Shown here piece after piece: positions 1,696 to 24,407 of a stretch of 24,407 nucleotides of DNA. This stretch comes from Cochliopodium minus. Taxonomy: Eukaryota; Discosea; Himatismenida; Cochliopodiidae. Under the pieces are notes generated by a model, which was not told the origin of the DNA, did no database searches, and saw only the letters and a program-made list of their open reading frames with translations. Numbering within the stretch: position 1 is the stretch's first letter; every line of letters begins with the position of its first letter. Where the stretch lies: assembly GCA_024220525.1 (NCBI GenBank), contig JAMYWO010000222.1, forward strand, positions 44,994 through 69,400, read 5' to 3'. A program made the position numbers and the translations under genes.

Positions 1696-1745
1696 TAAAC
1701 AATTTAATATTATAATATATTTATATTAATATAAATTATAAAAAA

Positions 1746-3880
1746 ATGAGAGAAGTTATTGAGAAACGTGTTCAAAAAAAAATGAAATTGGTTGGAAATA
1801 ATGATTCGAGAAACGAGAATGAGAAAGATAAAACCATTGCAGAGATTATTTTGGGAAGATTGAAGAATAATTTGAAAGATTTGAAGAGATTCAAACATCT
1901 CACCTTCAAAGATAAAAAGGGAAATGAAATTCTTTTTTTGGAGGAGATTCTTATTTCAAAGGATTTGAATAAGGAAAAAATTGAGAAATTAATCTCTCTG
2001 ATGGAAGAAAAATCTTCATTGGTAATAAGAGATTATTTGATGAGAAATGATCTTTGTTTTGATGAATTGGGATTGATAGAATTGTTTGAGATTTTATATT
2101 TTTCAAAAGAAATTGAAGATAAATTTTTGAAAGCAAAAATAGGGATAGAGATTGAGAATAAAATTGAAAATGTGCAAGTAATTGAATTGGGTATAGTATC
2201 CATTTAATATTATAAATATTTTTTTCTTTCACTGAAATAATTATTAAAATATAAAATAAAAAAATAAAAATCTTGATCATTAAGAAAATGAAAAAAGTTT
2301 AAAGATGTGAATAATCCATCTTTATAAACAAAACTTTTTCTAAAAAAAAAATTTTTAACAAAGGATCAACAATTAAAAGATTGGATGAGATGGGTTTAAA
2401 ATATGAAAGAGAATGGATTATAGTGAAATTCAAAATAAGAACACCATCGATGGAAGAGGTGGAAAAACTCAATTTTTCAGTGGATCTTTTCAAACATCTG
2501 TTCTGCGTTCAAGAAGAAAACCACCTCAAAGACATTTTCGAAAATACATTAGATATTCAAACAAAAAGTAAAATTACAGTAAAAAAGGAAGAAGAGAAGA
2601 AAATAGAAGAAATTGTTAAAAAATTTTGGGATGAGAAAGAAAAAAATGGAGATTATGTTGTAAATTGTGGAGATGGGCAATCAGTCAAGTTTCACAGATT
2701 CATTTTGACCTTATTGCCCTATTTTAATCACGAATTAAACTCTAGCAATTTTTTCAATGATAAAAATGAGCATAATACAAATCTTTCTTCAAATGCTTTC
2801 AATGATTTCGTACAGATTATTTATACGAGAGAAATGGATCATTTTGATGGGTTGAGTGCTTTGGAACTTTTGGATAAAGAAAATGGGATTTATTTTTATT
2901 TCGATTACAATGACATTTTGCTTAAAAAACTTGAAAACATCATGTTGAATAAACTGAGTAATCCTTCCAAAGAATCTTGCTTGGGATCTCTTTTGTATGG
3001 AATCCAAAATGAAAACGAAGAAATAAAACAAACTTGTTTGAAGGAATTCTATGAACACAAAGAAGAATTGATGCCAGATATCCCCAAAAAATTATCTGTT
3101 TCAGATCAATCCATTCTCCTCCATTTTATTTTAAATAATTTTTGTAATCATTTACAAAAAAAATCTATTTCAAATCTTTTCGATGAATTTAGTAATATTT
3201 TACAAGAAATTCACTTTCATCAATTGTCTGAATGGTATCTTTCTAATAACAAAATTACCAGAAAAATATTTTCCGCTGATGGTGAAAGTTTCAGCATGAA
3301 AACTTTTCATAAATTGACCGATCCTTTCAACAATATCATAGTAGTTATCAAAACAACTGAAAATTATATTTTTGGTGGACATACTAACTACAATTTTTCT
3401 AAGGTTGAAAATAGTATTTGTAAAAAAGATAGCTATTCTTCCCTATTTTCTTTCGTTTCTTGTTCAAATAGAAACCCTAAATTCTCCAAAATTAAATATT
3501 CCACAAGGGCTGTTTGTTGTTTAGAAGATGGATTTTCTTTTGGAACTGATTCAACTTTTAAATGTAGAAATAACTTATTTCTAAAAGTTTATTTTATATT
3601 TGTTTTCATTTTTATTTTTAATTTTATTTTTTTATTTCATTTTTAATTTTAAATTTTAATTTTGTTTTTTTATTTTAATATATTATTTTATTTAATTTTA
3701 TTTTTTTTTATTTTTATTTTTTATTCAGATTTTGATTTGAAAATATTTTCTAAAAATGGAAAAACTTATGGAAGGAATGATTATCATTGTTATGGATTAA
3801 ACTATGACATCGGAAGGTTGACAAACAAAGAAGAGTTTGAAGTGTCAAACATAGAAGTTTACAGAATCATAAACAAATGA
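1746..3880 (+). CDS. BTB-TLDc domain protein, copy 2 (intact)
   Basis: Three exons, 1746-2190, 2364-3563 and 3729-3880, give 598 aa; both introns are phase 1. The ATG at 1746 follows an A-rich run. Residues about 1-150 form a charged helical domain that I do not recognise. A linker with acidic and lysine runs leads to the BTB domain (about 215-320: FWDEKEKNGDYVVNCGDG, HRFILTLLPYF, IIYTRE). A helical BACK-like stretch follows, then TLDc from about residue 430 (FSADGESFSMKTFH, YIFGGHT, SLFSFVS, and in the last exon DLKIFSKNG and a closing VSNIEVYRI strand). The first intron joins what otherwise looks like two genes: splicing at GTATAG and AAG gives a continuous frame in both copies. Family knowledge suggests a substrate adaptor (BTB) and a V-ATPase or oxidation-related module (TLDc); the actual target is unknown. 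It ends 113 bp tail-to-tail from the phosphatase-like gene. Confidence 0.85.
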
Positions 3881-3993
3881 AAAAAAAAATTTAAAAAATA
3901 AAAAACAAAATAAAAATAAAAAACAAAAAATCTAAACAATAAATTAAATTTTTTAGTAATAAACAAATAATTATATCGAACGAAGACATTTCT

Positions 3994-6075
3994 TCAATTC
4001 AAAATGATTTCCATCTCGATTTTGCTACGGTTCTTGTGAGATTTGTTTCTCTGGTAACGCCTATAAAACAAAAAGAATACAAAACCAACAAAAAGACCAG
4101 CAAAAATGGAAAAGAAGATGGAATAAGAAACAAAGTTGGCATGGGTATGGTTGTAATAATGTTCGAGTTCACTTGGGCAAGCGTCTTCTATCAAATTTTC
4201 TGTGCACATCTTCATCCATCTTTCGAGGGGCGTGGCGAGCACTCCTGCGTGGAACCTTTTGAATTTATAGAAGGTGCATTCTGGTTTACAATACGTGAGA
4301 TTGAATTGTACATCTAAAATTTTGATTTTTTTTTCAATAATTTTTATTTTTTCTTTATTTTTTAGTTTTTATTTTATTTTAAGCAGTTTTTTTTATTTCT
4401 TCAATTTTCAATTTTTATTTTTATTTTTTATTATTATTTTATTTTTAAATTTGTTTTTTAATTTTTATTTTTTAATTTTTTATTTTTTTTAATATATTTT
4501 ATTTTTCTTTATTTTCTTTATTATTTATCATTTTTTATTTTTTATTTTTTATTTTTTTTAATATCAATTATTATTTTTGTTTTTTAATTATTATTTTTCT
4601 ATTTTAAATTTTAAATTTTGATTTTTTTATTTTTTATTTTTTTATTTATTTATTTTTACTTTATTTTTTATTTTGTATTCTTACTTTGATAATAAAACTT
4701 TAGTTTGTAGTGATCAAGAGAGGTGTTGGACATGAATTTTTCATCCAAAACATTTTCGTCATAATAAACCTCTATTTCCAAATGAGAAGAAAATGGAGCA
4801 TTAGAAAAGAAAGGATATCTAATCAAAATAAAAACGAAAATAAATAAAAATGAAATTAAAAATAAAAAAATTCAAAATAAAAACCTAATAAAAAAAATAA
4901 AAAAAAATAATAGTAAATGAATATAAAATTTAAAAATAAAATTCAAAATAAAAACCTAATTAAAAAATAAATAAATAATAAATAAATAAATATATAATAA
5001 ATAAATAATAAATAAATAATAAAAAAATAAATGAATAAAATAATGATTAAAGTAAAAATAAATGATTAAAAAAATAATAAAATAATGTAAAAAATTAAAA
5101 GTAAATGAAAAAAAAAATAAAAAAATAAGTAAAAACCTTAACAAAGAAGCCAAACTTCTTATGTTTTTGTCATCGGAACTGTAAGCCAAAAGTTTCTTAG
5201 GAGGAACTTTACTTTTGTTTTCTCTGAAAGAAATGAGGTGATCGATGTTCTGAGAAATTTCTTTGAGGAGATTTGTGGAGACCAAACTTCCGATCATGTA
5301 ATCGTTAGAAGTGAAGGTGTAGTTTTGTATGGCGGAATATATTTTGAAGATTTGGTGGATGTGGTCTGTTGAAATGTTTTTTGGGATGTGTCCGTATAAG
5401 TTGTGTCTTCGAGCACAATAAAGCGGGTAATATATTTCTAAACCAAAAAAGAAAAAAATAATAAAGTTTAATAATCTTTCAATAAATAAAAAAAAATAAA
5501 ATAAAAATAAAATAATTTTAATTGAATAAAATTTTAAATAATGAAAAAAAAATAAAACACAAAATTAAAATCAATAATAAATAAAAAAAAAAAAAGAACC
5601 AAATAAAAAAACTGGAAAGATAAAAAAATAAAAAATAAAATCAAAAATAAAAATAAATGATAAAAAAAATAAAAATAAAAAATTTTAAAAAATAATAATA
5701 AAAATATAAATAAAAATAAATAATAAAAAAATCACAAAATAAAAAATAAAAATAAAATAAAAATAAAAAATAAAAAATAAAAAATAAACAAGAAGAAATA
5801 CTCATTAAAAAATTAACGAAATTTAAAATATTTATTTTTATTACGATCCACGTAAGAAAGTTGATGTCTAAACAAAAGTTTGTTTGAAGAACAAATGTAA
5901 TTTTTGTATCTGTGGATTCCTCCCATTTTATCCATTGCAATGTTTGATGCAAGCTTTTCGATGTCTTGTAAAAAGGACAATTATGATAAGCTAGGAAAGT
6001 ACAAAAAATAAAAATAAAAAATAAAAAATAAAAAAATAAAAAATAAAAAATAAAATAAAATAAAAATAAAAAAAT

Positions 6076-6107
<32 letters not shown>

Positions 6108-7028
6108 TAAAAAAAATAAAAATAAAAAAATAAAAAATAAAAAATTGATACAAATAAAAATAAAAATAAAAAATTGAACAAAAACCATATTTTACATTGT
6201 AAAACATAATCTTGATCTAAATCAGAAGAATGAACGGGTATGATTTGCAAAGGATTCGAAGAATTTTTTTCCGCATCGTCAAAAAACCCTCTGACAAAAG
6301 CATTAAGAGATTGAAAGTTTCTGTCCCGTTTTATCGACTTCAAATAAATGTTTTCAAATTCTTTTGTAACGTCATCTTGTATGAGAGATATTTCTTTGAT
6401 GTATTTTCTTCTCAGTGAAAGACCCACGTTGTATGATTCTTCTAATCCCAATTTTGTTAGTTCTCCTGGTGCCTCTATTTTTTTTTTTGTTAATTTTTTT
6501 TAATTTTTCAATGTTAAAAAAAAAATTTTTTGCAATTTTTTTTGTACAAAATTTGATTCTTTGAGAAATTTCTTTAAAATATTATTTGTTTTAATGATGT
6601 TTTATTTGTTTTTTTTTTTTCGTGATTTTTTTATCATTTTATATTTTTCAGTTCAAAAATTATAATTAAATCTTTCAACGATTGAGTATTTGATGTGGAT
6701 ATTATCAATTCACCATTAAATATGATGGTTATAAATTTATATTTATTGTGGATAAATTTTATTTAAGACCAATATATTTGAAGGGTTGAAATTTAAGAAC
6801 AATTAAATATGCCAATATCTAAAATAAGAATTTGGATATGATTGATTCATTAATTTTACCTGTCCAATTGTATAAATAATTTTTTTTGGGTATATACATA
6901 GGAGAAATGTCTCCATGATTGATTATGGTCGCCACCATCATCAATTCCTCTTTCGATTCAACACAGGAGAATAATATACATAGTATGATAGAAATAAATA
7001 GGAGAGATGTTGTGCATCTTTTGAACAT
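3994..7028 (-). CDS. Histidine acid phosphatase-like type I membrane protein, probably catalytically inactive
   Basis: Six exons on the minus strand: 7028-6860, 6474-6196, 5990-5802, 5437-5137, 4818-4685, 4313-3994 (463 aa). All phases match. The ATG at 7028 opens a signal peptide (hydrophobic residues about 8-22). The fold is that of lysosomal/prostatic acid phosphatase: a motif at INHGDISP, then PGELTKLGLEESYNVGLSLR, a DR motif in KSIKRDRNFQS, the PVHSSD segment, the CPFY segment, and LAYSSDDKNIRSL. A luminal Cys-rich part with NHT is followed by a TM helix (SIFFSIFAGLFVGFVFFLF) and a basic cytosolic tail, as in lysosomal acid phosphatase. The family's RHGxRxP is NHGDISP here and the catalytic HD is DD, so two arginines and the acid-base histidine region are lost while the nucleophilic His remains. 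I infer a pseudoenzyme or a very altered enzyme in the endolysosomal membrane. The exon 3/4 junction (donor in ATGA-GTATTT) is the least certain. Confidence 0.82.
5991..6195 (-). repeat. T5-6A-rich intron of the phosphatase-like gene
   Basis: On the minus (sense) strand this intron is a run of TTTTTATTTTTTATTTTTA, as in introns of the plus-strand Roco and kinase genes. The other introns of this gene (4314-4684, 4819-5136, 5438-5801) are similar but less regular. The long Phe/Tyr-rich open frames across them are artefacts of this composition. Confidence 0.8.
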
Positions 7029-7479
7029 ATAATACCTGTAAGTTGTGAATATATATTGTTAATGTAAATGGATTTGAAAATTATGATTGATTTTTTACAT
7101 AAATGTCTTTTTTAGGATGGAAGAGGGAAATGATTCCAAATTTTTTTTTTTAAACACAAAAATTAAATCTTGTCAACGTGTTTGCATTTCAATTTTGAAA
7201 TTTTAATTAACCTTTCTTTATCATATGTTGTATTTGCTTTAAAAAATGATTGAATTAATTTACAACTAATAGAATTCCAACATCTTTTTTAGCGGATATT
7301 AATTTAAAACCAATTTTTTAAATAATTGTACTTTTCAAAGAACTCAAAGAATTTTTTTTGTAATTTAATTTTGATTACTTTTTTTGTTTGCATTTAAACT
7401 TTGACCAACTAAAAAAAAAAAAATTTGATCAAATAAAATAAAAAAAAATAAAAAACAAGTTCAAGAAAAATTTAAATCA
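7029..7479. promoter_or_regulatory. Divergent intergenic region between phosphatase-like gene and SelW-like gene
   Basis: This stretch of 451 bp separates two divergently transcribed genes, so it should hold both promoters. It is AT-rich with several A and T tracts (for example the A-rich run just before 7480). No specific promoter motif could be identified. Confidence 0.4.
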
Positions 7480-7731
7480 ATGAGCGAACTTCCAAAGATA
7501 GTGGTCAATACATGTGATAGTTGCCAAGGAGCCAAAGATATTTCTGATCTCATAGAAACTTTCAAAGGAAAAGCCATCGTTGAATTGAATCTGAAGCCAA
7601 AACATTATAATGAAAGATACTGTGTTATGAGTGTGGATGTAATCAAAAATGGAAACAAGAAGAAATATAATAAAAGAGGAAAAGAATATCCCAATGAGAA
7701 TGATTTGAATCAATATTTGAATGATTTTTAA
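7480..7731 (+). CDS. SelW/Rdx-family thioredoxin-like protein, copy 1 (Cys form)
   Basis: An intronless 83-aa protein. The ATG at 7480 is preceded by an A-rich leader. Near the N-terminus lies a beta strand followed by a CxxC motif (NTCDSCQGA, Cys12 and Cys15), at the position where selenoprotein W has CxxU. The C-terminal half has the family pattern of a strand ending in a short basic hairpin and Gly (DVIKNGNKKKYNKRGKEYP) followed by a helix. Length fits SelW/Rdx proteins (about 85-100 aa). Members are small thioredoxin-fold proteins thought to take part in thiol redox reactions with glutathione or 14-3-3 partners. Both residues are Cys codons (TGT/TGC), so no selenocysteine recoding is required. 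Assignment rests on pattern similarity, not a search. Confidence 0.7.
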   Translation: MSELPKIVVNTCDSCQGAKDISDLIETFKGKAIVELNLKPKHYNERYCVMSVDVIKNGNKKKYNKRGKEYPNENDLNQYLNDF

Positions 7732-7844
7732 ATTAAAGTACAAAAAACGAACAAATTATTCATTTCGAGTATATTTATCCTTTGAATTAAAAAATTTTTC
7801 AAAATATAACATTTGTTTGACTAGATTTAAAATAAAACCTACAA

Positions 7845-8180
7845 TTATCCCTAACGGTGAAAGTTAAAGAAAAGCCTCAATTTTATTTACACATCCAAAA
7901 GTGTTTAATTCTACCAAGCCAAAATAATACTTTTTCAAATCATAAATCTTTTAAATTGAAAAAATAGCAGAGGTCAAAAAAGTGTTTGGATCAATACAAA
8001 CAAAAAATGATACAATTATCATTGAAATGAATAATGAAAAATATAATAAATTTATTCGATGAAAAAAATTTTTTACAAAGTTTTTATATTGAAAAAAAAA
8101 ATTGCAAGAAAGAACTTTAGTGCAGACTGTTACACTGCAAAAATAAGGAGAACAGCCTGCACTTTCACCGTTAGGGATAA
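7845..8180. repeat. Inverted-repeat element (20-bp perfect arms), MITE-like or structured locus
   Basis: Positions 7845-7864 (TTATCCCTAACGGTGAAAGT) are the exact reverse complement of 8161-8180. The similarity extends imperfectly a few bases outward (CTAC before both arms, with one indel). The arms are clearly more GC-rich than their surroundings. The enclosed 296 nt hold another hairpin (8119-8163) and a short palindrome (8006-8023). No target-site duplication was obvious. It could be a small non-autonomous transposon, a hairpin RNA locus, or a remnant of an inverted duplication. Confidence 0.6.
8119..8163 (-). ncRNA. Candidate hairpin RNA (13-bp stem)
   Basis: AGTGCAGACTGTT at 8119-8131 pairs with AACAGCCTGCACT at 8151-8163 across a 19-nt loop. 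The single mismatch is A-C on the plus strand but becomes a G-U pair on the minus strand, so a minus-strand transcript would be fully paired. The stem is unusually GC-rich for this window. No known RNA family was recognised; expression is unknown. Confidence 0.3.
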
Positions 8181-8399
8181 GGTAGAAATTTTAATCAACA
8201 AAACTAAAGAAACAAATTTTTTTTTTGATTTCTATTCTACGGATTTATTCAAAAGATATTTTGTTTGAAAATTGTAAATAGAAGAATTTCTCTGGATGAT
8301 GGCTTATTGAATAAGTTTGAAAAAAAACATTTTGAATAAACAATAAAAACAAAAGAAATAAATAAATTAAAAAAAAAAACGAAAATTAATCAATAAAAA

Positions 8400-8651
8400 A
8401 TGAGTGAACTTCCAAAGATAGTGGTCAATACATGTGATAGTTGCCAAGGAGCCAAAGATATTTCTGATCTCATAGAAACTTTCAAAGGAAAAGCCATCGT
8501 TGAATTGAATCTGAAGCCAAAACATTATAATGAAAGATACTGTGTTATGAGTGTGGATGTAATCAAAAATGGAAACAGCAAGAAATTTAATAAAAGAGGA
8601 AACGAATATCCCAATGAGAATGATTTGAATCAATATTTGAACGATTTTTAA
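8400..8651 (+). CDS. SelW/Rdx-family thioredoxin-like protein, copy 2 (Cys form)
   Basis: An 83-aa intronless near-duplicate of the gene 920 bp upstream. Only three residues differ (Lys to Ser, Tyr to Phe and Lys to Asn, all in the basic hairpin near residues 60-70), and DNA identity in the first 170 bp is complete apart from one synonymous change close to the start (gcg/gtg region codon 2-3). The CxxC motif (TCDSC) is unchanged. The flanks differ, so the copy arose either by a short duplication covering little beyond the coding region or by gene conversion that keeps only the coding part uniform. Function as for copy 1. Confidence 0.7.
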   Translation: MSELPKIVVNTCDSCQGAKDISDLIETFKGKAIVELNLKPKHYNERYCVMSVDVIKNGNSKKFNKRGNEYPNENDLNQYLNDF

Positions 8652-8858
8652 ATTATAATTAAGAATTCTTATAGACCATTCCAATTAAAGAATTATTAAT
8701 GTATTGAATACAAGAAAAAATTTTTTTGATTAAAGTTCAATTGATAAACAAATCTTGATCATTAAAACCTTTTTTGATCAAATTATCTATATCTGAGTCC
8801 CTCATCAGTCTCAACCAATTTATTCCACGTATCAAGTTAAAAAATTAAAAAAAAAAAA

Positions 8859-9657
8859 ATGAAGAAATTCTTACAAAAGTTGGATGCTTATCCAAAGGTA
8901 TTGGATGAATTTAGAGAAAAGACATTGAGTGGTGCAATAGGTGAAGATATCATTCAATCAATTTAAAAATATGAATGTTGATCTAACAAGTATATTTTAT
9001 ACTATTGACAAATTTTGATGAATAATAAAGCCTTATCTGATATTATTCATTTATAATGAGTCATTTCAATTCTCTTCAAAAAAATTTTGAACATCATATT
9101 TTGATAGAGAAAAAAATAACATACAAAATTGATTAATGAACATTATTTTTAAAGATATCGATCTATTCTATAACCAGATCTTTTATTTTCTTACAAATTT
9201 TTGAAATATTGATATTATATTCAATTTTCTTACCATATAATTTATATAAACTCAATATTTCTTTGAATAGTATCATTAATATGTGGCTTGATAATCTTAT
9301 GGTTGTTCATCTCAGAATTATCACTCTATCTGAGCACAGAGGTGAAACCACAATTATATGTAGACACAACAAGAGGAGAAAAGATGAGAATAAATCTAGA
9401 TGTCACCTTCCCATCAATACCATGTGCATGTATAAAAAAAAAAAAATTTTTAATTTATTGTATTTCTCTGAAAAAAAATAATTGAAATTATAATTTTTGA
9501 TATCTTTCTTTTGATCAATCTTCTTTTCTCTTTTGATGAAAAGATTTGAGTCTTGATACCATGGACGTTTCTGGAGAGCATCAGACTGATATAGCCCACA
9601 ACGTCTTCAAAAAGAGGATGAGGGATGGGAAGCCTGTGGCAGTTGAAAGACAAAATT
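8859..9657 (+). CDS. ERGIC3/Erv46-like cargo receptor, 5' part only
   Basis: Three exons, 8859-8940, 9271-9429 and 9544-9657, with phase-1 introns. Exon 1 reads MKKFLQKLDAYPKVLDEFRE, the typical ERGIC3/Erv46 start. Exon 2 gives the first transmembrane helix (SLICGLIILWLFISELSLYL) and the start of the luminal domain (STEVKPQLYVDTTRGEKMRI, then FPSIPCA). Exon 3 continues YLSLDTMDVSGEHQTDIAHN and VFKKRMRDGKPVAVE. The Erv41-Erv46 complex cycles between ER and Golgi in COPII/COPI vesicles and retrieves escaped ER proteins. About 118 residues are present of a protein usually near 380 aa; the remaining luminal domain and second TM helix are not found downstream, where T-rich repeats and an unrelated kinase follow. 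So the gene is either broken by an assembly join or truncated. Without splicing, the first exon alone would look like a 35-aa ORF. Confidence 0.82.
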
Positions 9658-10275
9658 GTAATTACAATAAATTTATTTGAATTTTAAAGCATTTTTATAA
9701 GTTTTAATTGTATTTTTAACTATTGTAATTTATGTAACTTTTATTTTATTCTTTTATTTTATTTTTATTTTAGATTTATTTTTATTTACTAAACTTTTTT
9801 TTTTACATTTATTTTTATTTTTAAATATTTTAGTTTATTCAACTTTTTTTTATTTTTATATCTTATTTTATATTTATTGTTATTTCTTTTTTTATATTTA
9901 TTTTTTAATTTTTATTTTTATTTCTTATTTTATTTTATTTATTTAATTTCTTATTTTATATTTATTTTTAATTTTTAATTTAATAAACCTTTTTTAATTT
10001 TTTCATATTTATTTTTTCATATTTAATTTTTAAATATATTTATATTTATTATTCATTTATATTTATTTTATTTTTTATTTTTTATTTTTTATTAAAGTAT
10101 TTTTTATTTTTTATTTTTTATTTTTTATTTTTTATTTTTTATTTTTTATTTTAATAAAAAATAAAAAATATTTTTTATTTTTTATTTTTTATTTTTTATT
10201 TTTTATTTTTTATTTTTTATTTTTTATTTCATTTTATTTTTTGTTAATTTTTATTTTCTATTCTTCATTTGAAAG
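9658..10275. repeat. T-rich low-complexity region with T6A heptamer array
   Basis: No exon is visible. The first 400 bp are mixed TTTTATTTT sequence; 10078-10228 is an array of TTTTTTA units interrupted at 10153-10170 by an A-rich stretch of the opposite orientation (TAATAAAAAATAAAAAATA). ERGIC3 coding sequence ends on one side and a kinase C-lobe begins on the other, so an assembly join probably lies here. The 24-nt segment around TTATTAAAGTATTTTTTATT occurs both near 10087 and near 11636. Confidence 0.7.
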
Positions 10276-11856
10276 TATATGAACCTTGGAAGTCTGTTTT
10301 CATATATCCACGACAAGGAAAAAGAAATGACAGGCAAACTCAAGCTCTCCATCTCCAAATCCATCGCAGAGGGAATGAATTTTTTGCACAGCAGGAACCC
10401 TCCCATCATACATCGTGACTTGAAAAGCCCCAACGTAAAATTTTTTTTTATTTTATTTTTATTTTTTTATTATTATTTTTATTTTTTTTATTTTTTCATT
10501 TTTTTAATATTTATTTTTTTCATTTTTTTTAATTTTAAATTTTGTTCTTTTTTGTAGGTTCTTCTCCATCTCACTGAAGACAACAAAATTATAACCAAAG
10601 TAACTGATTTCGGACTTTCGACAAGCGTTTCGGAAATCACAGGAAGAGTGGTCGATAATCCAGTAAGATTTTTTTATTATTAATTTTAAAAACTTTTTTA
10701 TTTTTTTTTTGTAAAAAATTTTTTCATATTTTTTTTTTCATTTATTTTTTTGAATTTAATTTGTGTTTTTTTTTGATTTTTTGATTTTTTTTCTAATCAA
10801 GGTTTGGTTGGCTCCAGAAATTATAAAAAGAGGAAAACACACAACGAGCAGCGACGTATATGCTTATGGAGTGATTTTGTGGGAGATTGCCACGCGTTCA
10901 CAATTTTTTTCAGAAATTACTTTTCAAACAGAAATCGAAGAGAAAGTGCTTGCTGGTAAAAAATCCAATATTTTTAAAAAAAAAATTATTTTTTATTTTT
11001 TATTTTTTATTTTTTATAAAAGGTGAAAGACCAAGCATTCCCCAGGACATTTGCTCCAAAATCATATCTCTGATTTTAAAATGTAAAATTTGTTTTGTCA
11101 TTAATTTTTTAATCAAATAATATTATTATTTGATTAATTTTTTCATTTCTCATTCATTTACTTATTATTATTAAAATTATTTTATATTTATTATTTATTA
11201 ATTTATTATTTTTCATCATTTTATCATTTTTTTTATATTAATTTATCATTTTTTATTATTTTTTTAATTTTAATAAAATAATTTATTTCTAGTTAATTTT
11301 TATAATTTATTTCTAGTTAATTTTTTTTTTATTTGGATTTTTTTAAGAATTATTTTTTACATTTTTTCTTTTTAAAAAGGTTGGTCTTCTGAACCAAAGA
11401 ACAGACCCAATTTCTTGGAAATAGTGGACGGCCTGTCCATTCTCTCGAACTTTGACACCAACGAGAGCGTGGTGATAGAAAAGGAGCCTTCTGACAGTGA
11501 AATCAACCTCGACAAACTCAACAACAAAAATAAAAAAAATCTGAATAATGACAATGATAATAATTTTTCAAACAATAATTCTCCAAATCAAAAAATGTCA
11601 AGTATAACTATTGGTAAAAAAAAAGCAATTTATTTTTTATTAAAGTATTTTTTATTATTTATTATTTATTTTTTATTTTTTAATTTTATTTTCTTTTTAT
11701 TTAGAGAACTTGGTTACACCAAATAGTTTTTGGGAAGATGAGAACGACTCTTCTTACGATGAACAAAGAGCCAGTTTCATTTTGGATCTCATTTCCACCA
11801 ACAAAAGCAAAAAGAACAACAAAAACAAACAAATGAGAAATCTGAGGAGCAATTAA
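10276..11856 (+). CDS. Roco-type (TKL) protein kinase, C-lobe only, 5' missing
   Basis: Six exons: 10276-10434, 10558-10662, 10802-10955, 11023-11082, 11380-11613, 11705-11856. The first begins after AAAG at a phase-0 acceptor and starts YMNLGSLFSYIHD, the kinase hinge and alphaD. Then follow IIHRDLKSPN (catalytic loop), TKVTDFGLS (DFG), a short activation segment, VWLAPEII (APE), SSDVYAYGVILWEIATR, GERPSIPQD and CWSSEPKNRPNFLEIV. The layout, including the DNPVW segment before the APE motif, resembles Dictyostelium Roco kinases. A tail of about 110 residues follows, rich in Asn and Lys. No glycine loop, VAIK lysine or alphaC helix occurs upstream: the preceding gene is ERGIC3. Hence it is an orphan C-lobe, either a fragment placed wrongly by the assembly or a rearranged copy. 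Its first exon would join in phase with the end of the Roco gene at 24294. Confidence 0.85.
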
Positions 11857-12255
11857 TTAGAAATTTTATTTTCTAAACAAAAATGTTTTTTTTCACATGG
11901 AAATTTTTATTTAATCTCCTTTTTTTATATTTTTTTTTGTAAACAAACCACTTTTTAATAAAATAAATTATTTTTTGTAAAAATTTTAAACATTTTTAAC
12001 CTGTCAATCAAAACCATTTTGGTTTATTTCTGTAGTTGAAGTCCCCTTAGAGCTACCATCCTTTCTCATATTCCTCCTTAAGTCTGTTCCTTTCCTCCTT
12101 TCTTTTTTCTCTATAAAATTTTCAGAGAAATGTTTAAATGAAATTTCTTTTAAATGATTAATTGATGCTTCTGAGATTTTGTTTGATCTAAACCCAATAC
12201 AACAACTATTACACCCATATACAACCACATTTCTTTTAATTTTTGAATTAAAAAA
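11857..12255. other. Intergenic stretch, possible small minus-strand gene
   Basis: This 399-bp stretch is less AT-rich than other spacers, which hints at coding or conserved sequence. On the minus strand an open frame runs from about 12240 to 12004 with a cluster of cysteines (YGCNSCCIGF) and a basic, Lys/Arg/Glu-rich tail. No family was recognised and a splice model could not be fixed, so no CDS is called. Confidence 0.3.
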
Positions 12256-12577
12256 ATGATAAAAAAGAAAAGAAAAAAAATGGATCAAGAAATTACTGAT
12301 GAAGAAAATGGACAAGATTTAAAGAAGAATTTGAAAAATGAGAATGAAGAGGATAAAACCATTGCGGAGATTATTTTGGGAAGATTGAAGAATAATTTGA
12401 AAGATTTGAAGAGATTCAAACATCTCACCTTCAAAGATAAGAAGGGAAATGAAATTCTTTTTTTGGAGGAGATTCTCATTTTAAAGGATTTGAATGTGTC
12501 AAAAATTGAGAAATTAATCTCTCTGATGGAAGAAAAATCTTCATTGGTAATAAGAGATTATTTGATGAGAAATGATC
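12256..12577 (+). pseudogene. Third copy of BTB-TLDc first exon, truncated at assembly N
   Basis: The ATG at 12256 opens a new N-terminus (MIKKKRKKMDQEITDEENGQ) that then becomes almost identical to exon 1 of copy 2 (from EDKTIAEIILGRL through SLVIRDYLMRND). At the nucleotide level identity persists to 12577, one base before the N; copies 1 and 2 continue CTTTGTTTTGATGAATTGG there, whereas this copy changes abruptly to a TTATTTAAT repeat. The rest of exon 1, the BTB domain and the TLDc domain are absent. It is most likely a real paralogue cut by an unsized gap and not a functional short gene. Confidence 0.75.
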
Positions 12578-12578
12578 N
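12578..12578. other. Single ambiguous base (N) marking a likely assembly gap or join
   Basis: This is the only N in the window. The left side is BTB-TLDc exon 1, the right side is minisatellite and then a RasGEF gene that lacks its 5' part. Both genes are cut, which is what an unsized scaffold gap would give. Confidence 0.75.
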
Positions 12579-12719
12579 TATTTAATTTATTTAATTTATT
12601 TAATTTATTTAATTTATTTAATTTATTTAATTTATTTAATTTATTTAATTTATTTGATTTATTCAATTTATTTGATTTATTTAATTTATTTAATTTATTC
12701 AATTTATTTGATTTATTTT
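12579..12719. repeat. 9-bp minisatellite (TTATTTAAT)n
   Basis: About 15 tandem 9-bp units with a few TTATTTGAT and TTATTCAAT variants. Because 9 is a multiple of 3 it gives a long open frame of Leu-Phe-Asn repeats, which is an artefact. It probably lies in an intron of the RasGEF gene, directly before the acceptor at 12728. Confidence 0.9.
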
Positions 12720-12728
12720 TTAAAATAG

Positions 12729-13590
12729 TAAAAAAAAAATTCAACTTGAACAACTGCTATGCGATCGTGGCAGCCATCAACAGTAACTCCATCACAAGAA
12801 TGAAGCAATCATGGAGCAAAATAGGAAGTGAGAACAACAAAACCTACCAAACTTTCCAACAACTCTGTGATCTCTTCAACCCCCAAGCAAACATGAAGAA
12901 TTTAAGGTAAAAATTCAAAAAAAATTCATTTTTTCATTTAAATTTATTTTTAATTTTAATTTTTTATTTTAATTATTTTATTTTATTTAAATTATTTTAA
13001 TTCTATTATTAATTATTTTATTTCTAATTATTTTAATTTTAATTTTAGTTCTGTTTAATTTTTTTTAATTCTCCATTTAAATAATTTTTCATTTAGGAAA
13101 TTCATTTCTTTGCATCCTAACGAGATTGTTTGTCCCTTTATTGGAATGTATACTAAAGACATCTTTGGAATCGAAGAAAACAATAAGTAATGAAAACAAA
13201 AAATAATAAAATAAAGAATAAAAAAAATAAAACGATAAATAAAATAGAATAAAAAACTAATAATGGAAATAAAGAAATATTTTATTAAACAATTTTTTTT
13301 TTTTAATAAAAAAAAAAAGAAATTATTTGACGGAAGGAATTATAAACTTTGAAAAGATGGAAATGCTATCAAATGTGATCGAAAGCACACTCAAATTTCA
13401 ATCGATACCTGACGTGAAGAAAAAAATTTCGAACATGTTCGTCAAAAACGAAAACCTTGTTTCCGATCCCATCTATAAGTATGAGGCTATTGGAGATGAA
13501 CATTTGTATCGTTTGTCTTTACAAAGAGAGGCTAAAAATCAGAATTTTAATAATCCTTTGTTTTCGATCGAAACTAACAAGAAAAATTGA
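12729..13590 (+). CDS. RasGEF (CDC25-homology) domain protein, 3' part
   Basis: Three exons, 12729-12906, 13097-13186 and 13320-13590, with phase-2 introns throughout. The product reads NNCYAIVAAINSNSITRMKQ and SWSKI (core RasGEF helices around the Ras-binding site), LRKFISLHPNEIVCPFIGMY and TKDIFGIEE (the conserved P-F-x-G-x-Y-x-x-D segment), then LTEGIINFEKMEMLSNVIES (the INFxK signature) and a C-terminal LYRLSLQREAK ending. These proteins catalyse GDP release from Ras-type GTPases. About 180 residues, roughly the C-terminal two thirds of a catalytic domain, are present. The RasGEF-N domain, the first catalytic helices and any upstream modules are lost at the gap, so substrate class cannot be told. 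Confidence 0.85.
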
Positions 13591-14041
13591 TCAAAGTTTG
13601 AAAGGAAATTTGAATTATTTTAATTTTCATTTTACCTTATTTCTTCTTCAATTTTCTTTTTTTTATTTATTTTCTCTTTCTTTCTCCCTCTCTTCTTTTA
13701 TAAAGTTTTTTTTCTTCTTCTCAATAAACAAAATATTTTATTAAATCAACTTTTATTAAAATCTTTCCTTGAAATTATTTGTTATCAAAGTAAATGAATT
13801 TTTTAAAAAAATACAATTTTTCTTTCACTTTATTACGATAAACGAGACAATTCTTTCTTCCCACGTCAAAGTCTCATGAAACTTGTGGAAATAAATTGGA
13901 TTCCAATTTACGAAAAATTTTTTTTGGATCTTAACTTTTCTGTTTCAATGAATCATAAAAGTAAAGATTGTTGACTAAGAAGTTGAATTACCCATTTCTT
14001 GAATTAAATAAAAAATAAAATAAAAAAAATTGAATTTGATA
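13591..14041. other. Intergenic region containing SPRY-gene remnant
   Basis: After the RasGEF stop comes T-rich sequence to about 13820; from 13825 to 14005 a decayed copy of the end of the downstream F-box/SPRY gene is found (separate entry). Confidence 0.6.
13825..14005 (+). pseudogene. Decayed 3' end of an F-box/SPRY gene copy
   Basis: The DNA matches 14853-15058, the end of the intact neighbour: shared blocks include AAACGAGACAATTCTTTC, GAAACTTGTGGAA, GTTTCAATGAATCATAAAAG and GTTGAATTACCCATTTCTTG. Deletions (about 25-30 bp after the first block, smaller ones later) and a frame-disrupting change in the final codons destroy the frame. No 5' part is visible upstream. Confidence 0.85.
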
Positions 14042-15058
14042 ATGGAGACTTATTTCCATTTACTTCCCAAATTTGTATTATCTCATCTTTTTTCTTTCAT
14101 TTCTTTCAATGAAATTTCGAAATTAGAAAGGATATGCAAATCAATCAAAATATTGATTGAAACAAAAGAGATATGGAAAACAATATGCCAAAGATATGGT
14201 GTTGATATAGAAGTGAATGAAAAGGACAAGAAAAATTGGAAAGTTTATTTCAAAGAAAATTATAAAACTTTTTCACAAACTCATAAATGGAAACAAAACT
14301 ACCAATTTGATGAATTCAATAGAAAAGCAACTTTGAAAGATGAAGAGAATTACAAACATTTTGTTCTTCCTCTCAAACAAAGTATAAAAGAAATAACAAG
14401 AATTGATTTTGAAATAATCAAATATGAACCAGGATTATGGATAGGATTATACAATCAAAAAACAGCAAAAGATGTAAGAGAAAAAAAATGTTTTTTTTTT
14501 AAAATATAAATAAAAAAATCATTTTGTTGAAAAAGAAAATTTAAAATTGAAAATTACATTTTTTTAAAAAAATTTTTTGATTCAAACTAAACATCTCACC
14601 TTTTTTCTTTTTATTAAACATTCTAAATGCATTTTTTATTTTAGGATGATTGGCTTGGAGGAGGAAAAGGAACAATAGGTTGGGGAAATTGCAAACAAGG
14701 AAATTACAAAATTTTTTATGAGTGTAAAACTTTTTTTCTACACAATTTGAACTTTCCTTTACTAAAAAGTTTTTTCAAAACAAAAAAAGATTCTATGATG
14801 TTGAAAATTAGAAACATCCAACTTGGATCTTATGATGAAAAAGATATAGTTTCACTTTATTTCGACAAACGAGACAATTCTTTCCATTACTTTTTGAATT
14901 ATAAACTTCCTCCCATGTCAAAGTCTTATGAAACTTGTGGAATTAAAGTGGATTCCAATTTCTATAAAAATTATGAGGATCTTTTCTTTGCTGTTTCAAT
15001 GAATCATAAAAGTAGTGTAAAGATTGTTGACTCAGAAGTTGAATTACCCATTTCTTGA
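14042..15058 (+). CDS. F-box and SPRY-like domain protein
   Basis: Two exons, 14042-14473 and 14645-15058, phase 0, 281 aa. The ATG at 14042 was chosen because the conserved decayed copy at 15091 starts at the equivalent codon. Residues about 5-50 look like an F-box (LLPKFVLSHLFSFISFNEIS, then LERICKSIKILI and IWKTICQRYG), which would bind Skp1 of an SCF ubiquitin ligase. The rest resembles SPRY: PGLWIGLYNQ, GGGKGTIGWGNC, DIVSLYFDKRDNSFHYFLNY, EDLFFAVSM. F-box/SPRY proteins such as Fbxo45 use SPRY to pick substrates. The first exon has a reading frame with typical Lys-rich composition. Both flanks carry decayed copies, indicating a tandem array with a unit of about 1.05 kb. Confidence 0.72.
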
Positions 15059-15090
15059 ATTAAAAAAAAAATCAAAAATTGAATTTGATA

Positions 15091-15192
15091 ATGGATACTT
15101 ATTTCCATTTAATCCCCAAATTTGTATTATCTCATTTTTTTTCTTTCCTTTTTTTAAATGAAATCTCAAAAACAGAAGAGATATGCAAATAA
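15091..15192 (+). pseudogene. Decayed 5' start of an F-box/SPRY gene copy
   Basis: The frame reads MDTYFHLIPKFVLSHFFSFL and stops at TAA (15190-15192) after 33 codons. It matches the first 33 residues of the intact gene, including the leader AATTGAATTTGATAATGGA. Homology is lost shortly after the stop. Together with the remnant upstream it shows that a tandem array has collapsed to one working gene. Confidence 0.85.
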
Positions 15193-15311
15193 TTTTAGAA
15201 AAATAATGTTAGAATCAAAACTATTTTTAATTAGATAGTTGATTTTTTGGATTATATATATTGAGATCTCTTTCTTAATTTTATTTGTTTTGATATAATA
15301 AAAAAAAAAAA

Positions 15312-15997
15312 ATGGAAAAAGCACCAAATCCTCCATTAAGTGCAAAGAAGATCAAGAAGAATAAAAAATTCCCAAAATTATCACATCCAATGCCCCAAAC
15401 TCCCCAACAATATAAACTAATTTATCCTTGGAGAAAATTTTATCCCCTTGCCATCTTTGCATCCTTTGTGACTGGTGCTATTATAGAATATAGTATCATA
15501 AAATCAGGCTTCTGTAGGTTTTTCTTTGATATAAATTAATAATATTTCAAAATATCCTATTCATAATAACAAATTACAAAACTCAAACATCATCAAAATG
15601 AGAAAATAATTATAAATAGAGCAAATAAATTAATGTGGTTTCTTATTTTCCTATCATCTTAATCATTCTTTCACATATTATAACCCACGTATATAATCAA
15701 AAAAGAATTCCAAAGAAAATTCAAATGATATCTTGCCTTTAATTTCATCAATTAATAATCTTTTAGATGATATGATGAAGATCTCAAGCTATAAAAAAGT
15801 CAATGAGTTTGAAACAAAGCTCAAAGAAGCAAAAAGAGATCCAGAATTGGCAGAAAGAATGAAAGTAATTAAAGAGATGGAATTAAAGTATCAAAAAGCA
15901 TTAAAGGTAAACAAAAAAAAAATTAAAACAATTAAATTTAATTTAAAATAAAAAAAAACAATAGGAAGTTGAAGAAAGAAAGAACAAAAAAAATTAA
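15312..15997 (+). CDS. Small single-pass membrane protein, possibly SMIM4/UQCC5-type mitochondrial factor
   Basis: Three exons, 15312-15513, 15767-15906 and 15965-15997, give 124 aa. The N-terminus is basic and proline-rich (MEKAPNPPLSAKKIKKNKK). A YPWRKFYP stretch leads into one TM helix (LAIFASFVTGAIIEYSIIKS), and the splice joins GF to Y giving the GFYDM sequence. The second half is a highly charged coiled helix (NEFETKLKEAKRDPELAERM, KVIKEMELKYQKALKEVEER). The GAxxEYxxIKxGFY pattern after the TM helix resembles small mitochondrial inner-membrane proteins of the SMIM4/UQCC5 kind, which help complex III assembly. That is an inference from short motifs. What supports the gene itself is the exact phase fit of all three exons and the A-rich context before the ATG. 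Confidence 0.65.
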
Positions 15998-16194
15998 AAA
16001 AAAAAGTTGTTTTATTTATTAATTTTTATTTGACTCTTTTTTTTTTTTTTTTTTATTAATTTGGTTTTTCCTTTGGCTTTTCAAAGTTTTTATAAAGAAA
16101 AAAGCATATTAAATAATTTATAAAAAAAATAAAAAAAAGATAAATTAATACTAAGAATATTTTTATCTTTTTTTTTATTTTTCCTTTTTTTCTT

Positions 16195-18566
16195 TTATTT
16201 CTTTTCGAGTTGCTTGACCTTTTCTAAAGCGGAACTTTTTAGATGCTCGTATTTTCTACGAATAGACTCCACCTCCATGTCTACTTCCTTGTCTAGTTGA
16301 ACCAACATCTGTTCGAGTTGTTTCTTATCGTACTGAGAAAAATCTTTTGGAGGACCAGTCAAAAGGCTGTCTGATTTATCTATTATCCAAAAAATAATAT
16401 AATAAAATAAATGTCAAAAAAAATAAAATTCAAAAAAAAATAAAATTCAGATAAATCCAAAATTATTTTTTGAATATTTTCAATGAAGAAGGTTACTGAT
16501 GTTGGAGTTGGTGATCATTGTTCCGTCAGAACTAGAAAGTGTGTTATTGTTTTCTTTGTGGTGGAAAAGAGTATTGCTGTTGGACTTGGTTGGCTTTTGA
16601 CTCGTACTTCCTCCTTCCTAAAAATAAAAAAATAAAAGATCAAAATATTAGTAAATATAAAAATTAAAAAATGAAAAAATTTCAAAAAAAAAAAAAAATA
16701 AAATTTAAATTTGTTTTACCTCAGAGTCCTCTTCTTCTTCAGAATCAAAACCCAAAGCAAGCTCTCTTGAACCAGCTTGACGAATCAACTCGGCAGTTTG
16801 ATCGATGATGTCTTGTAAAGAGGAAGTAGGTTTGGCATTCTTGAGAAAGTTGTGGCTCAACAAATCTTTAGCGAAAGGTCTCTTCTCAGGGTTTTTAACT
16901 AAACATTTGGAGAGAAAGTCGTTGAATTCTTCTGGCCAGTCTTTTGGCTCGTCCAAAGTTGGAGGGCTGTTTTGTGGGATCATGAAGATCGCTCTCATTG
17001 GATGGATGTCGCTGAGTGGAGGTTCTCCTTGTGCCATTTCCTGATGAAGAAATATAAAAAAAAATCAAAAAGATTAATTTAGAATGATTTAAATGAAAGA
17101 TATGAATCAATCTCATTATATTTGTTAATGTTTTTTCCGTTTGGATATAAAGTGATTATATAAAATTATAATTTTATTTCAAGAAAAAAAAAACGTATAA
17201 TTTATAATTACAATAGCAGTGATTCCAAGTGACCAAATATCTGCTCTGACATCATATCCTATCTCTTGTATGACTATAATAAAAGAAGATTAGGTAAATA
17301 TAAAGATTTAAGAAAAAGCATTTTTGAATATACCTTCAGGAGCCATCCAATACTAATCATATGAATAAATAAAGATTAATAAGCTTTTTGAAATTCAATA
17401 AGAAAATATTTTTTACAGGAGTTCCAATAACTGTGATTCTCTTTCCCATTTTTTCAGATATAGTACCAGCAATACCAAAATCAGCTAAATTTGGAAATAA
17501 TAGTGAGTTTTAAAGTTTTGAATAAAGAAGGTGTATATATTTTAAAATGAGAAGATTCAATGAGATGCTTTTAGATGAATATTCGAAATTAATTGATATA
17601 TTTCTTCATCAAATTGTTGTGAAGTATTTTTAAAGTATTATTACTGTATAATTTTTTAAATGGAGGTATTATATTGCATTGTAAAAGGTATTTGGAAAGT
17701 AATCAAAAGATTTAAATTCAATATTATGAAAATTATTTTTCTATACCCAATTTTACACCTCCTTTTTCAGACAATAGAATATTTCCTGATTTGATATCTC
17801 TGTGTATCAATTTATTATTGTGAAGATACATCAATCCATTGATTACTTCTTTGATAATTGTTTGAATTATAACGGCAGCCAATGTTTTTTGTCTAATTTT
17901 GATTATATCTGCAACAGATCCTACCTATAAAGTGAAATTATATAATCAAATTCTTCTTAAATTTGAGATCTTCTATGAATTTATAAATGATCAATTGGTA
18001 AAAATTGGAAAGAATTGGTTATAATGATAAATATTTTTATATTTTATAAATTATATTGAGATCAAATTAGAAATCTTTATTACCCCACAGTATTCCATAG
18101 CAATCTATAAAGGAAAAAAAATCAGCATAATGAAAAATATAAATATAGAATACAGTATTATAATAATTTATAAGAAAAGTATGAAAATAAAGATATAAAA
18201 TTGTTTTTTGAACAGATCTTGTATCTAAATTAATAATCTATATGTTACCCATAATCTTTCATCTTTCAAGAATGATCCATAATATTCGACAATAAATTCA
18301 CTTTTTAAATCTTTCATTATATTTACTTCCTTTATTAAATTATTTGATTCTTCTTCCAACTCTACAACTTTAATAGCACATAATGTACCACTTTGTTTAT
18401 GAATGGCCTTCCATACAGTACCATAAGAACTAAAAAGAAAAAATGTTCAAAAGAATGAAAAGTTTAATTTTTATATTGGTATAAACCCTTCTCCCAATTT
18501 CTCCATCAATCCAAATACTTCCAATGGATCAGATTTTTGATCGAAATCTTTCAAGACAATACTCAT
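16195..18566 (-). CDS. Hippo/MST (STE20 GCK-II) serine/threonine kinase with SARAH domain
   Basis: Ten exons on the minus strand: 18566-18487, 18429-18249, 18104-18084, 17924-17747, 17484-17417, 17352-17334, 17273-17212, 17040-16720, 16617-16497, 16379-16195; total 411 aa. Two are micro-exons (21 and 19 nt). Kinase motifs in order: LGEGSYGTVW (glycine loop), CAIKVVE (catalytic Lys), IKEVNIM (alphaC Glu), [40 protein letters not shown] (activation segment with the Thr phosphorylated in MST), [31 protein letters not shown] (near-diagnostic of MST1/2/Hippo), [10 protein letters not shown]. An acidic-serine linker leads to a C-terminal SARAH helix ([38 protein letters not shown]). MST/Hippo phosphorylates MOB1 and LATS/NDR kinases and dimerises through SARAH; Dictyostelium KrsA is a close functional analogue. 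Complete and apparently intact. Confidence 0.95.
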
Positions 18567-19049
18567 TTTTTTTATATATTATTTTTTTTTTCTGAATATT
18601 TCCATCCTCTTTATAAAATTAAATTTAATTTTTTTAATCTTCCTTGTTAAATTTTTGAATCTGGGTTTAAAGGAATAGAAGATATATGAAGGATAATTCA
18701 TGAATTTATATCAAGGAGATGTTATAAAATTTATATAATCCACAATAAAAAAAAAAAAATCATTGTTGAAAAAAGAAAGAAAACAAAATATATTCCAAAA
18801 TACAATCAAATTAGATCATTTCTTTTCAAAACCTTTTTAAAATAACAACTGTATAATCAATCATACTAAATAAAGGGTAAAAAATAACAAACAAACGGTT
18901 AATAATATTAATCATCCTATCAAAAATGACCATATATCAAATCATCAATTAAAACCAATAACATCAAATATTAATTAATTCCCTTTTCATATTTCCATCC
19001 TAAAATATAATATAATTTCTTTTTATATTTTTTTCCATATTCCTTAGAA
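18567..19049. promoter_or_regulatory. Divergent intergenic region between Hippo kinase and Roco gene
   Basis: 483 bp between two head-to-head signalling kinase genes, so likely to hold both promoters. AT-rich with A and T tracts. No defined motif could be named. Confidence 0.4.
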
Positions 19050-22000
19050 ATGAATAAGGATAAAGGAGATTGGGATGGATTGAATATCATAAATTTGGCA
19101 TCCAAAATAGCGAATAACAGATATCTCAAGAAAGATTTGTCTATAACAAAAACTGAACTTTCAAGCCAGGTATTCTCTACGTTATTGAATGCATTGATAC
19201 CAAATGAAACAATAGAAGTGTTGAATCTATCAGATAATAAAATATCAGAGAAAGATATCAGTCAATTATTTACCGAATTGAAGAAAAACATTTCAATCAC
19301 AAAATTGGTTTTGAAAGGAATACCTATTTCTCTCAAAAATCTTCAAGATTTGATGGATTTATTCTCGATCAATATAAAAATAGGAGAAGTCGAAATGGAA
19401 GTTGACGAAGAGACATGGAGAAAGATGAAAAAAGGAAAGGAAGATAATCCAAAGCTTCAATTCCAATCATATTTGAGATCAAACAAGAATATACAGACAT
19501 TAGCGAAGAATCTCGAAAATGAAGAAAAAACCTCCACTGATGATAATCATTACAGCATGAAAACAAGATATTCCATGTATACAGATGAAGAAGAAAGCAG
19601 CAGAAGCGAAAGCCCTACCATCTTTTCAATGAGTCTTGATTCATCTGAATTGAAAAAGACAGTGAAAGTGTTGACCCCTTCTTTCATCAACTTTAGTAAC
19701 AGAAATTCTCTTGTGGTGCCTCCAATAATCTTCAAGTTTCTTTCTATTAGCGATCTAAACTTGTCATGTAACAACTTGGAGGAAATCCCCAATGAGATAG
19801 AACATCTTTGTTATTTGAAGAGATTAAACTTTGATCATAATCACATCAAAGTGATTCCAGAGTCCATATCTTTCCTTGAGGAGCTAAAATATTTTTCTAT
19901 TTCAAACAATCAAATAGAGATAGTGCCACTTTATCTTAGGGCTTTGGGAAATCTCAAAGAGATAAATCTTGAGCACAACAAGATCAAGGTTCTTCCCTTC
20001 TTTCTTTCTACCCTAGAAAACTTGAAGAAATTAGAGTTGCAAGGAAATTTGGCTTACAAATCAGTCCCTAAAAGAATCACAGAGGGAAAGGGTAAAGAGA
20101 TGATAGGATTTTTGAAATCTAGTTTAAACAACAATCAAAAATCTTCTTCGAGCGTTCTTATGATACTTGGCTCCAGAAATGTTGGCAAATCTTCTCTCAT
20201 GTCTTCTCTTTTAAACACTCAAGTAAGAAACAGACGTGGATCTCTTTTCAAAAGCAAAGAATACGAGAAGAATGCTATTGACAAAAGAAAATCCAGAAAT
20301 ATGGAAGTGGATGACAAATTTGAGAACATTACTTTTGATAATGTCCAGAAAAGAGATGTTTTGGATAACATCAACACCATTTCAGAACAAAACGAAACAA
20401 CAAATAATGATAAAGAAGTATCCACTTTCGAAATTAAAAACACGGAAAGCTCCGAAGGTGTAACAATGACAAAGTGGGTAAAAAAAAAAATATTTTTTCG
20501 TCTTTTTTTTGATTTTAAAATATTTTCATTATAAAAAGGTAATTCATTCTGGAATTGAGCGCTCTAATAGCAACTCTCAACAGATGAACTCAAAGTTGTT
20601 CGATTTTACTGTCCCTAATTTCAATGGGAATGACATTGACCAAAGGATCTACAAGATATTCATGTCTCGCAGGGCTGTGTATATGGTTTGCTTCAACATC
20701 ATGGAGCCACAAGAGCCAGTGTCCAAATTAGAATACTGGCTACAGTTGATTAAAAAAGATGCATGTTCAGCACCTGTAAAAAAATTTTTAAAATAATTTT
20801 TTTTAATAGTATTTTTTTTGATCATTTTTAATTTTTTTTTAAAAAAAGGTTATTCTTGTTGGTACTTATTCTCAGGAAGAAGAATTGTCCAGGGAAACCA
20901 CTAAGAAAATAGAGAAGCACATTGTCGAAAATTTTTTCGGGAGGTTCAAGAACATTGTGGATTTCGTAGTGATCGATTTTAAACGTGCAAAGAAGAAAGA
21001 ATTTGTGAATTTACAGCAGAAAATAATGAAGATCACAGGAAAAACGATGGGCGAGATGATTTCACTCAATTATTTGACACTCAGAGAAAAAATAAGGATT
21101 TTGAAATCTCGCTATACGAGTCCTTTGTTGCAATATGATGTTTACAGGAAGATGGTGATGAGGTGTGGAGTTTCTTCCCAACAGTTGGATGCTGCGACTC
21201 AATTTTTGTTTGAGTTGGAGGAAATATTTTGTTGTGAATCTAATTCAAAGTTTATTTGTATTGACAGGTAAAATTATTAATTTAATTTATTATATTGTTA
21301 TTTTTTTTTTCATTTATTTTATTTTATTTTTTTTATTTTTTTTAAACTTTTAATTTTTTGATACCTTTTTATCTATTTTTCAACTTTTAATTTTATAATT
21401 TTTTTATCTTTACATTTATTTTTAATTTTTTTATCTTTTCATTTATTTTAATTTTCATTTAATTTCATTTTTAAACATTTAATTTATTTTCAATTTATTT
21501 TACCTATTATATTTTTAAATAGGGATTGGATTGCTAGACTTTATCGAAAGGTTCTGTCGGTGGAAAGTGCAAAATGGGGAGTGATCAAAAGAGAAGAAAT
21601 TGCAAAAGTTCTGTCAGTGAGACAAAACGAGCTGGACTTTCTCTTCGACTGCTGGGAACAACTCAACTTGGTACTATCTGTTAAGAACGACAACAGAATC
21701 GTCATTGTTCCTTCTCTCTTTTACAATACTCCTCAAGATTTGGAAACACATTGGCCAAAATTTGCTATAGGTCCACAGTTATCTAGAATTTATATTTTTG
21801 AATATTTAGAATCTGTCATATTTCACAAATTAATCGCAAGAGTAAATCAATTTATTTATTTACTAAAATTTTTTATTTTCATTATTTTATTTTATTTTTT
21901 GAATTTTTTCATATTTTTTATTTATTTTATTTTTTTTTTTTTATTTTGTTATATTTTAAATTTTTTTTTTATTATTTACTCTTTTTTTTGATTTGATTTA

Positions 22001-24294: not shown

Positions 24295-24307
24295 GTAAGA
24301 ACAATTT

Positions 24308-24407
24308 ATTTTTCATTTTTTATTTTTTATTTTTTTATTTTTTATTTTTTATTTTTTATTTTTTATTTTTTATTTTTTTATTTTTTATTTTTTATTTTTT
24401 ATTTTTT
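24308..24407. repeat. T6A heptamer array in the last Roco intron, runs off window
   Basis: After the donor at 24295 the intron becomes tandem TTTTTTA units to the end. The array resembles that at 10078-10228, which precedes the orphan C-lobe exon. Confidence 0.9.

Follow-up and report, generated by a model that had tools for sequence, protein, structure and literature searches.

The gene order in this part of the assembly appears to be an assembly artefact, a reading to which we give a probability of about 90%: the pieces of a scaffold would have been strung together in reverse, each on its original strand, so that several ordinary genes look halved. The window, i.e., the whole stretch of 24,407 bases that was analysed (G000:C222:44994-69400), is the right end of C222, a scaffold of 69,400 bases from an AT-rich eukaryotic genome, and its position 24407 is the final base of that contig. 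Single Ns occur in the scaffold at C222:4180, 35213, and 57571 (the last being window position 12578), and a run of 5,804 Ns at C222:39190-44993 abuts window position 1. Six pieces were set out, named a, b, c, L, A, and B, the 5,804-N gap separating c from L (positions without a prefix are those of the window).

C222:1-4179, piece a
C222:4181-35212, piece b
C222:35214-39189, piece c
1 to about 10152 (right edge approximate, within 10100-10170), + strand, piece L, with the remainder of BTB-TLDc "copy 1", copy 2, other genes and, last, the N-half of an ERGIC3/Erv46-type gene; proposed neighbours A on the left and c (C222:35214) on the right
10100-10229, T6A arrays with a strand flip at 10153-10170, where L is probably wrongly fused to A
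about 10171-12577, + strand, piece A, with a Roco kinase C-lobe and the 5' part of a BTB-TLDc gene; proposed place between 24407 and window position 1
12578, single N, probably a false join of A to B, the next gene being the C-half of a RasGEF gene
12579-24407, + strand, piece B, with the RasGEF C-half, other genes, and a Roco gene as far as its kinase hinge; A is the proposed neighbour on the right

The true order would be B (12579-24407), A (10171-12577), L (1-10152), and c (C222:35214-39189), most likely followed by b and then a. Compared with it, the scaffold order a-b-c-L-A-B is reversed at four of the five neighbour pairs, all on the same strand, and the adjacencies B to A, A to L, L to c, and b to a are each supported by a gene apparently cut in two or by an exact overlap; the fifth, c to b, is weak. 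The sequence-only reading had suggested that a piece of about 2.4 kb might be misplaced, bounded by the flip at 10153-10170 on its left and by the N at 12578 on its right. Both bounds are seen in the sequence, and the placing of 10171-12577 directly after 24407 agrees with the kinase hinge and the intron phase, with modest support from trees. What did not stand is the scope of that claim, which was too narrow: the whole scaffold order would be affected, because A leads on its right, through a 77-base overlap, into window position 1; nor would A belong behind 10152, since the ERGIC3 gene carries L on into C222:35214. The flip itself reads AATAAAAAATAAAAAATA at 10153-10170 and is flanked by two T6A arrays, and we infer that L and A are two separate pieces fused here without an N. 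Judged by eye, the flip and the next bases, TTTTTTATTTTTTATT, form a palindrome, which possibly arose on the fusion of two T6A ends.

The strongest single argument for the putative false fusion of L to A is the splitting of the last gene of L.

9264-9657, + strand, N-half of an ERGIC3/Erv46-type gene, with a first exon matching from 9264 and ending at 9429, then an exon at 9544-9657, beyond which no exon was found up to the T-rich array

The end of L matches ERGIC_N (PF13850, 34-80 of 91, E 3.7e-14), and piece c opens with a T6A array followed by a full COPIIcoated_ERV domain (PF07970, 1-227 of 227, E 6.4e-90). Genome searches with ERGIC_N gave a single above-threshold match, the one that closes L, besides a sub-threshold match on C44; those with COPIIcoated_ERV gave five exon matches, all in c, which holds the sole above-threshold gene of this kind found. 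The donor at 9657 and the acceptor at C222:35313 join in frame over the stretch checked (..KPVAVERQN-SMGPPPTEKPKEDANYCGSCYG..), and only after this joining are the two domains found in one open frame. We take this gene to be ERGIC3. Like the ERGIC3/Erv46 cargo receptors, it has ERGIC_N followed by COPIIcoated_ERV; unlike them, it is split between window 9264-9657 and C222:35313 onwards, presumably by the same ordering error.

The join of B to A is supported by a Roco kinase gene that would be cut at the hinge of its kinase domain.

19050-24294, + strand, 5' part of the Roco gene (LRR, Roc, COR-B, and kinase N-lobe), 1,245 codons in 8 exons (19050-20477, 20539-20775, 20849-21267, 21523-21841, 22084-22532, 22835-23144, 23443-23757, and 24037-24294)
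24295-24407, + strand, 5' part of the Roco hinge intron, with donor GTAAGA and a T6A array; proposed continuation at about 10171-10275
10276-11856, + strand, kinase C-lobe and tail with its own stop, six exons in an open spliced frame (10276-10434, 10558-10662, 10802-10955, 11023-11082, 11380-11613, and 11705-11856)

The eight-exon model keeps an open frame with all introns GT..AG and ends in ..LSMMME at 24294 on a phase-0 GTAAGA donor, which bears out the earlier view that the gene ends there and passes into a T6A intron. In Pfam, its product matches Roc (PF08477, E 1.2e-9) and then COR-B (PF25497, E 2.9e-16), and also LRR_8. The orphan C-lobe and tail, 287 residues long and intact, starts at the next hinge residue (YMNLGSLF.., 10276), and its first exon is preceded by ..TTGAAAG in phase 0, in agreement with the predicted phase-0 acceptor after a T6A array; the exon set given above is one among four open splicings. 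The coverage of the kinase profile PF07714 is complementary, the Roco part matching positions 44-80 and the orphan positions 82-256 of 258 (141.5 bits, E 3.8e-41), in the same phase. A complete kinase domain C-terminal of COR would have one part in B and the other in A, not contiguous in the assembly, and the proposal that joining MMME to YMNLGSLF restores a kinase hinge is in keeping with these spans and with phase 0 on both sides. Against B to A, the N-lobe match, at 18.9 bits, falls under the curated cut-off of 23.1, and 29 T6A bases at the end of B recur exactly where c begins. T6A sequence is indeed present on both sides of the split, as had been pointed out, but is weak evidence alone and was rejected as proof of the join, since such arrays are frequent in C222 (14 T6A/T5A-type arrays of at least four units). 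The order of LRR, Roc, COR-B, and kinase is that of the Dictyostelium/LRRK-type Roco kinases, and we presume the product to be comparable with Dictyostelium Roco4 and LRRK; its proposed hinge, ..MMME-YMNLGSLF.., resembles ..AMEYMECGTL.. of P0002 (named as Balamuthia). It differs from those kinases in that the gene is split over two assembly pieces, nothing else distinctive having been seen.

Among the alternatives, the one that survives best, though still unlikely, is that a second Roco gene lost its 5' part and left the C-lobe at 10276 as a remnant, the gene at 19050-24294 having its own C-lobe beyond the contig. Roco-like genes are many here, COR-A being matched 69 times at E ≤ 0.01 (21 of these matches above the cut-off) in a genome of 44.65 Mb, and C-lobe fragments sit near other contig ends, one at C103:135279-135569 (- strand) and perhaps another at C567:11652-11894, both of which are possible rival partners for the Roco N-part. 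Nevertheless, no N-lobe was seen next to this intact C-lobe, and the sequence to its left is that of an ERGIC3 gene continuing elsewhere. When the genome was searched with the C-lobe (best 150 of 284 candidates scored), 54 matches were listed, three of which are exons of A itself; the other 51 listed share 25-50% identity with it over the aligned stretches, and each of the eight Roco-like relatives read has an N-lobe of its own, which makes this paralogue, also raised by the sequence-only reading, the weaker interpretation. An intron exactly at the hinge point was seen in none of these eight loci, so that a conserved hinge intron in paralogues was uninformative as a test of the B-A join. Trees were built from hand-aligned sequences (17 N-parts and 16 C-lobes) with seven own-genome paralogues in each, C111, one of the eight loci, being omitted from both. 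In the C-lobe tree, A falls with P0035 and P0013 (support 0.865); in the N-part tree, B falls with P0002 and with the row of P0006 completed by the N-lobe of P0035 (support 0.772), P0006 and P0035 being probably two halves of one gene. None of the seven own-genome paralogues joins either group. Both trees are of modest strength and only partly congruent: P0013 stands beside P0035 in the one for the C-lobe but away from B in the one for the N-part. Ranked by BLAST score, A is matched best by P0004, with P0035 eighth of 15, and B by P0002, with the P0006 row third of 16. The complementarity of the two parts in profile and phase, and their similar places in the two trees with modest support, speak against a paralogue and for a single Roco gene divided between B and A.

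The other end of A appears to lead back to the start of the window, through a BTB-TLDc gene.

12280-12577, + strand, 5' part of a BTB-TLDc gene ("copy 3"), whose frame runs through the 77-base overlap into window 78 onwards
1-77, + strand, left end of L, the same in sequence as the 77 bases that precede the N at 12578

The overlap between the end of A and the start of L is exact over 77 bases and no longer; the frame of A is open across it into L, and in scaffold order, across the N, it stops within two codons. Of the closely similar BTB-TLDc genes, the genome search gave 5' halves in A and copy 2 (93% identical) and 3' halves in copies 1 and 2 (84-97% identical over the matched parts), two of each, along with one further, distant match (73%) on C56. 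Since the frame is open through the overlap and the halves number two and two, "copy 3" most likely supplies the start that "copy 1" lacks, and a third copy was rejected, there being not three of each half in the contigs searched. Of the suggestion that a BTB-TLDc copy 3 sits directly downstream of the Roco gene, the order, Roco and then BTB-TLDc, is supported, but the third copy is not. In both remaining copies BTB is followed by TLDc, with BTB at E 9.5e-5 (280-891) and TLD at E 1.1e-15 (870-1541) in copy 1, and BTB at E 1.2e-4 and TLD at E 4.5e-11 in copy 2 (2372-3643). Near this pair lies another recent tandem duplication, at 7479-7735 and 8399-8655, of a small gene beginning MSELPKIVVNTCDSCQ, the two copies being 98% identical over 257 bases and 920 bases apart from start to start.

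To the right of the N, where the remainder of the BTB-TLDc gene had been expected, the sequence encodes part of a RasGEF gene instead.

12735-13590, + strand (boundaries approximate), RasGEF C-half, PF00617 85-180 of 181, E 4e-23

It is the sole entry from C222 among the RasGEF matches listed; no N-half was found in the scaffold among these matches, and none was picked out by eye among them at another contig end. The N-half may be on sequence outside the contigs searched, the last-numbered of which has 10,038 bases. The RasGEF set of this 44.65-Mb genome is very large, with at least 171 exon matches at E ≤ 0.01 (best 150 of 217 candidates scored). It is very improbable that only the 2.4-kb piece is misplaced and that L is rightly followed by B. 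Such a reading has the merit of minimal change and explains the kinase, but the last gene of L continues in c and not in B, the RasGEF C-half with which B opens has no N-half in L among the matches listed, and the right end of A overlaps window position 1. In the reversed order, the RasGEF C-half would come to stand at the outer (left) end.

The last 77 bases of b are likewise the first 77 of a, and this 77-mer occurs at just these two places in the genome, so that the adjacency of b to a is supported by sequence. As for c and b, the minus strand carries an F-box-like gene truncated where b begins and a gene fragment where c ends, and a join through an F-box/SPRY-like gene was not upheld as firm, the part at the end of c having no Pfam match and the F-box match in b being below threshold. 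The fragment at C222:38700-39189 (- strand), SPRY-like as judged by eye, contains one stop and one frame change and is either a pseudogene or the product of a local sequence error. At the right of a, the N-part of an amino-acid transporter gene (Aa_trans, PF01490, 17-88 of 410) is truncated, so that after reversal two truncated genes with domain matches are at the outer ends, RasGEF at the left of B and Aa_trans at the right of a.

That L and A together (window 1-12577) form a real circular or tandemly repeated unit of 12.5 kb seems highly implausible, even though this stretch ends on its own first 77 bases, an end-to-start identity that counts against the artefact model, and even though the a-b stretch (C222:1-35212) does likewise. 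The 77-mer of L and A is found inside copy 2 as well, its last 30 bases occurring at 48, 2023, and 12548. An identity of exactly 77 at two unrelated places fits an assembler word length, and a circle would leave both ERGIC3 halves partnerless, though they match each other across C222. Equally, we give hardly any credence to the order being real, with permuted gene segments bounded by direct repeats (the 77-base overlaps as pointers) and reordered before expression, as in the scrambled genes of ciliates.

The reversal of the pieces would have come about in two steps. The contig ends, which either have exactly 77 bases in common or fall in simple-repeat arrays, are such as a de Bruijn assembly with k=77 would leave, and a scaffolding step would then have set neighbouring contigs in the opposite order, their strands kept. 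We take 77 to be a word length of SPAdes, and the single N to be the mark of a particular scaffolder (SSPACE). The likely cause is that inward-facing read pairs were taken as outward-facing, which would swap the order without a change of strand. Mate pairs should face outward, and a high proportion of inward-facing pairs of about 500 bases has been described and ascribed to paired-end contamination (PMC3622640). Scaffolds from mate pairs with such contamination would resemble ours in having neighbours wrongly ordered at single-N or fused simple-repeat joins; the difference is that the excerpted text of that paper contains no pattern like the four of five pairs reversed in C222 and the one in C580. 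Among the titles listed in a literature search, none dealt with whole-scaffold order reversal. Some observations count against the model: no N marks the join of L to A, the model gives no reason for the 5,804-N gap separating c from L, and, as regards pair orientation, swapped pairs such as a and b, 35 kb together, would imply strongly negative gaps.

The same order swap is apparently shown by an independent scaffold, C580, at its one pair. It reads piece 1, N, piece 2, yet piece 2 ends on 961 bases that are 92.9% identical to the opening 930 of piece 1; its left flank of the N is single copy, so that end overlaps are not present at every N. Being only 92.9% identical, the overlapping stretches (C580:1-930 and 10272-11232) may represent two haplotypes or a recent duplication, and not one sequence. 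C598, with one pair, has T6A at both outer ends and no decisive gene join, and no N is present in C590.

Underneath, the biology is ordinary: a BTB-TLDc gene comes after a Roco kinase gene, and it would be wrong to report the orphan kinase half as a paralogue or as a split gene. If the reversal affects other scaffolds, as it seems to in C580, gene models, synteny, and claims about gene neighbours would be wrong at such joins, and split genes would be counted as partial paralogues. A mechanical correction may be possible, by inverting the order of the pieces inside scaffolds with their strands kept.
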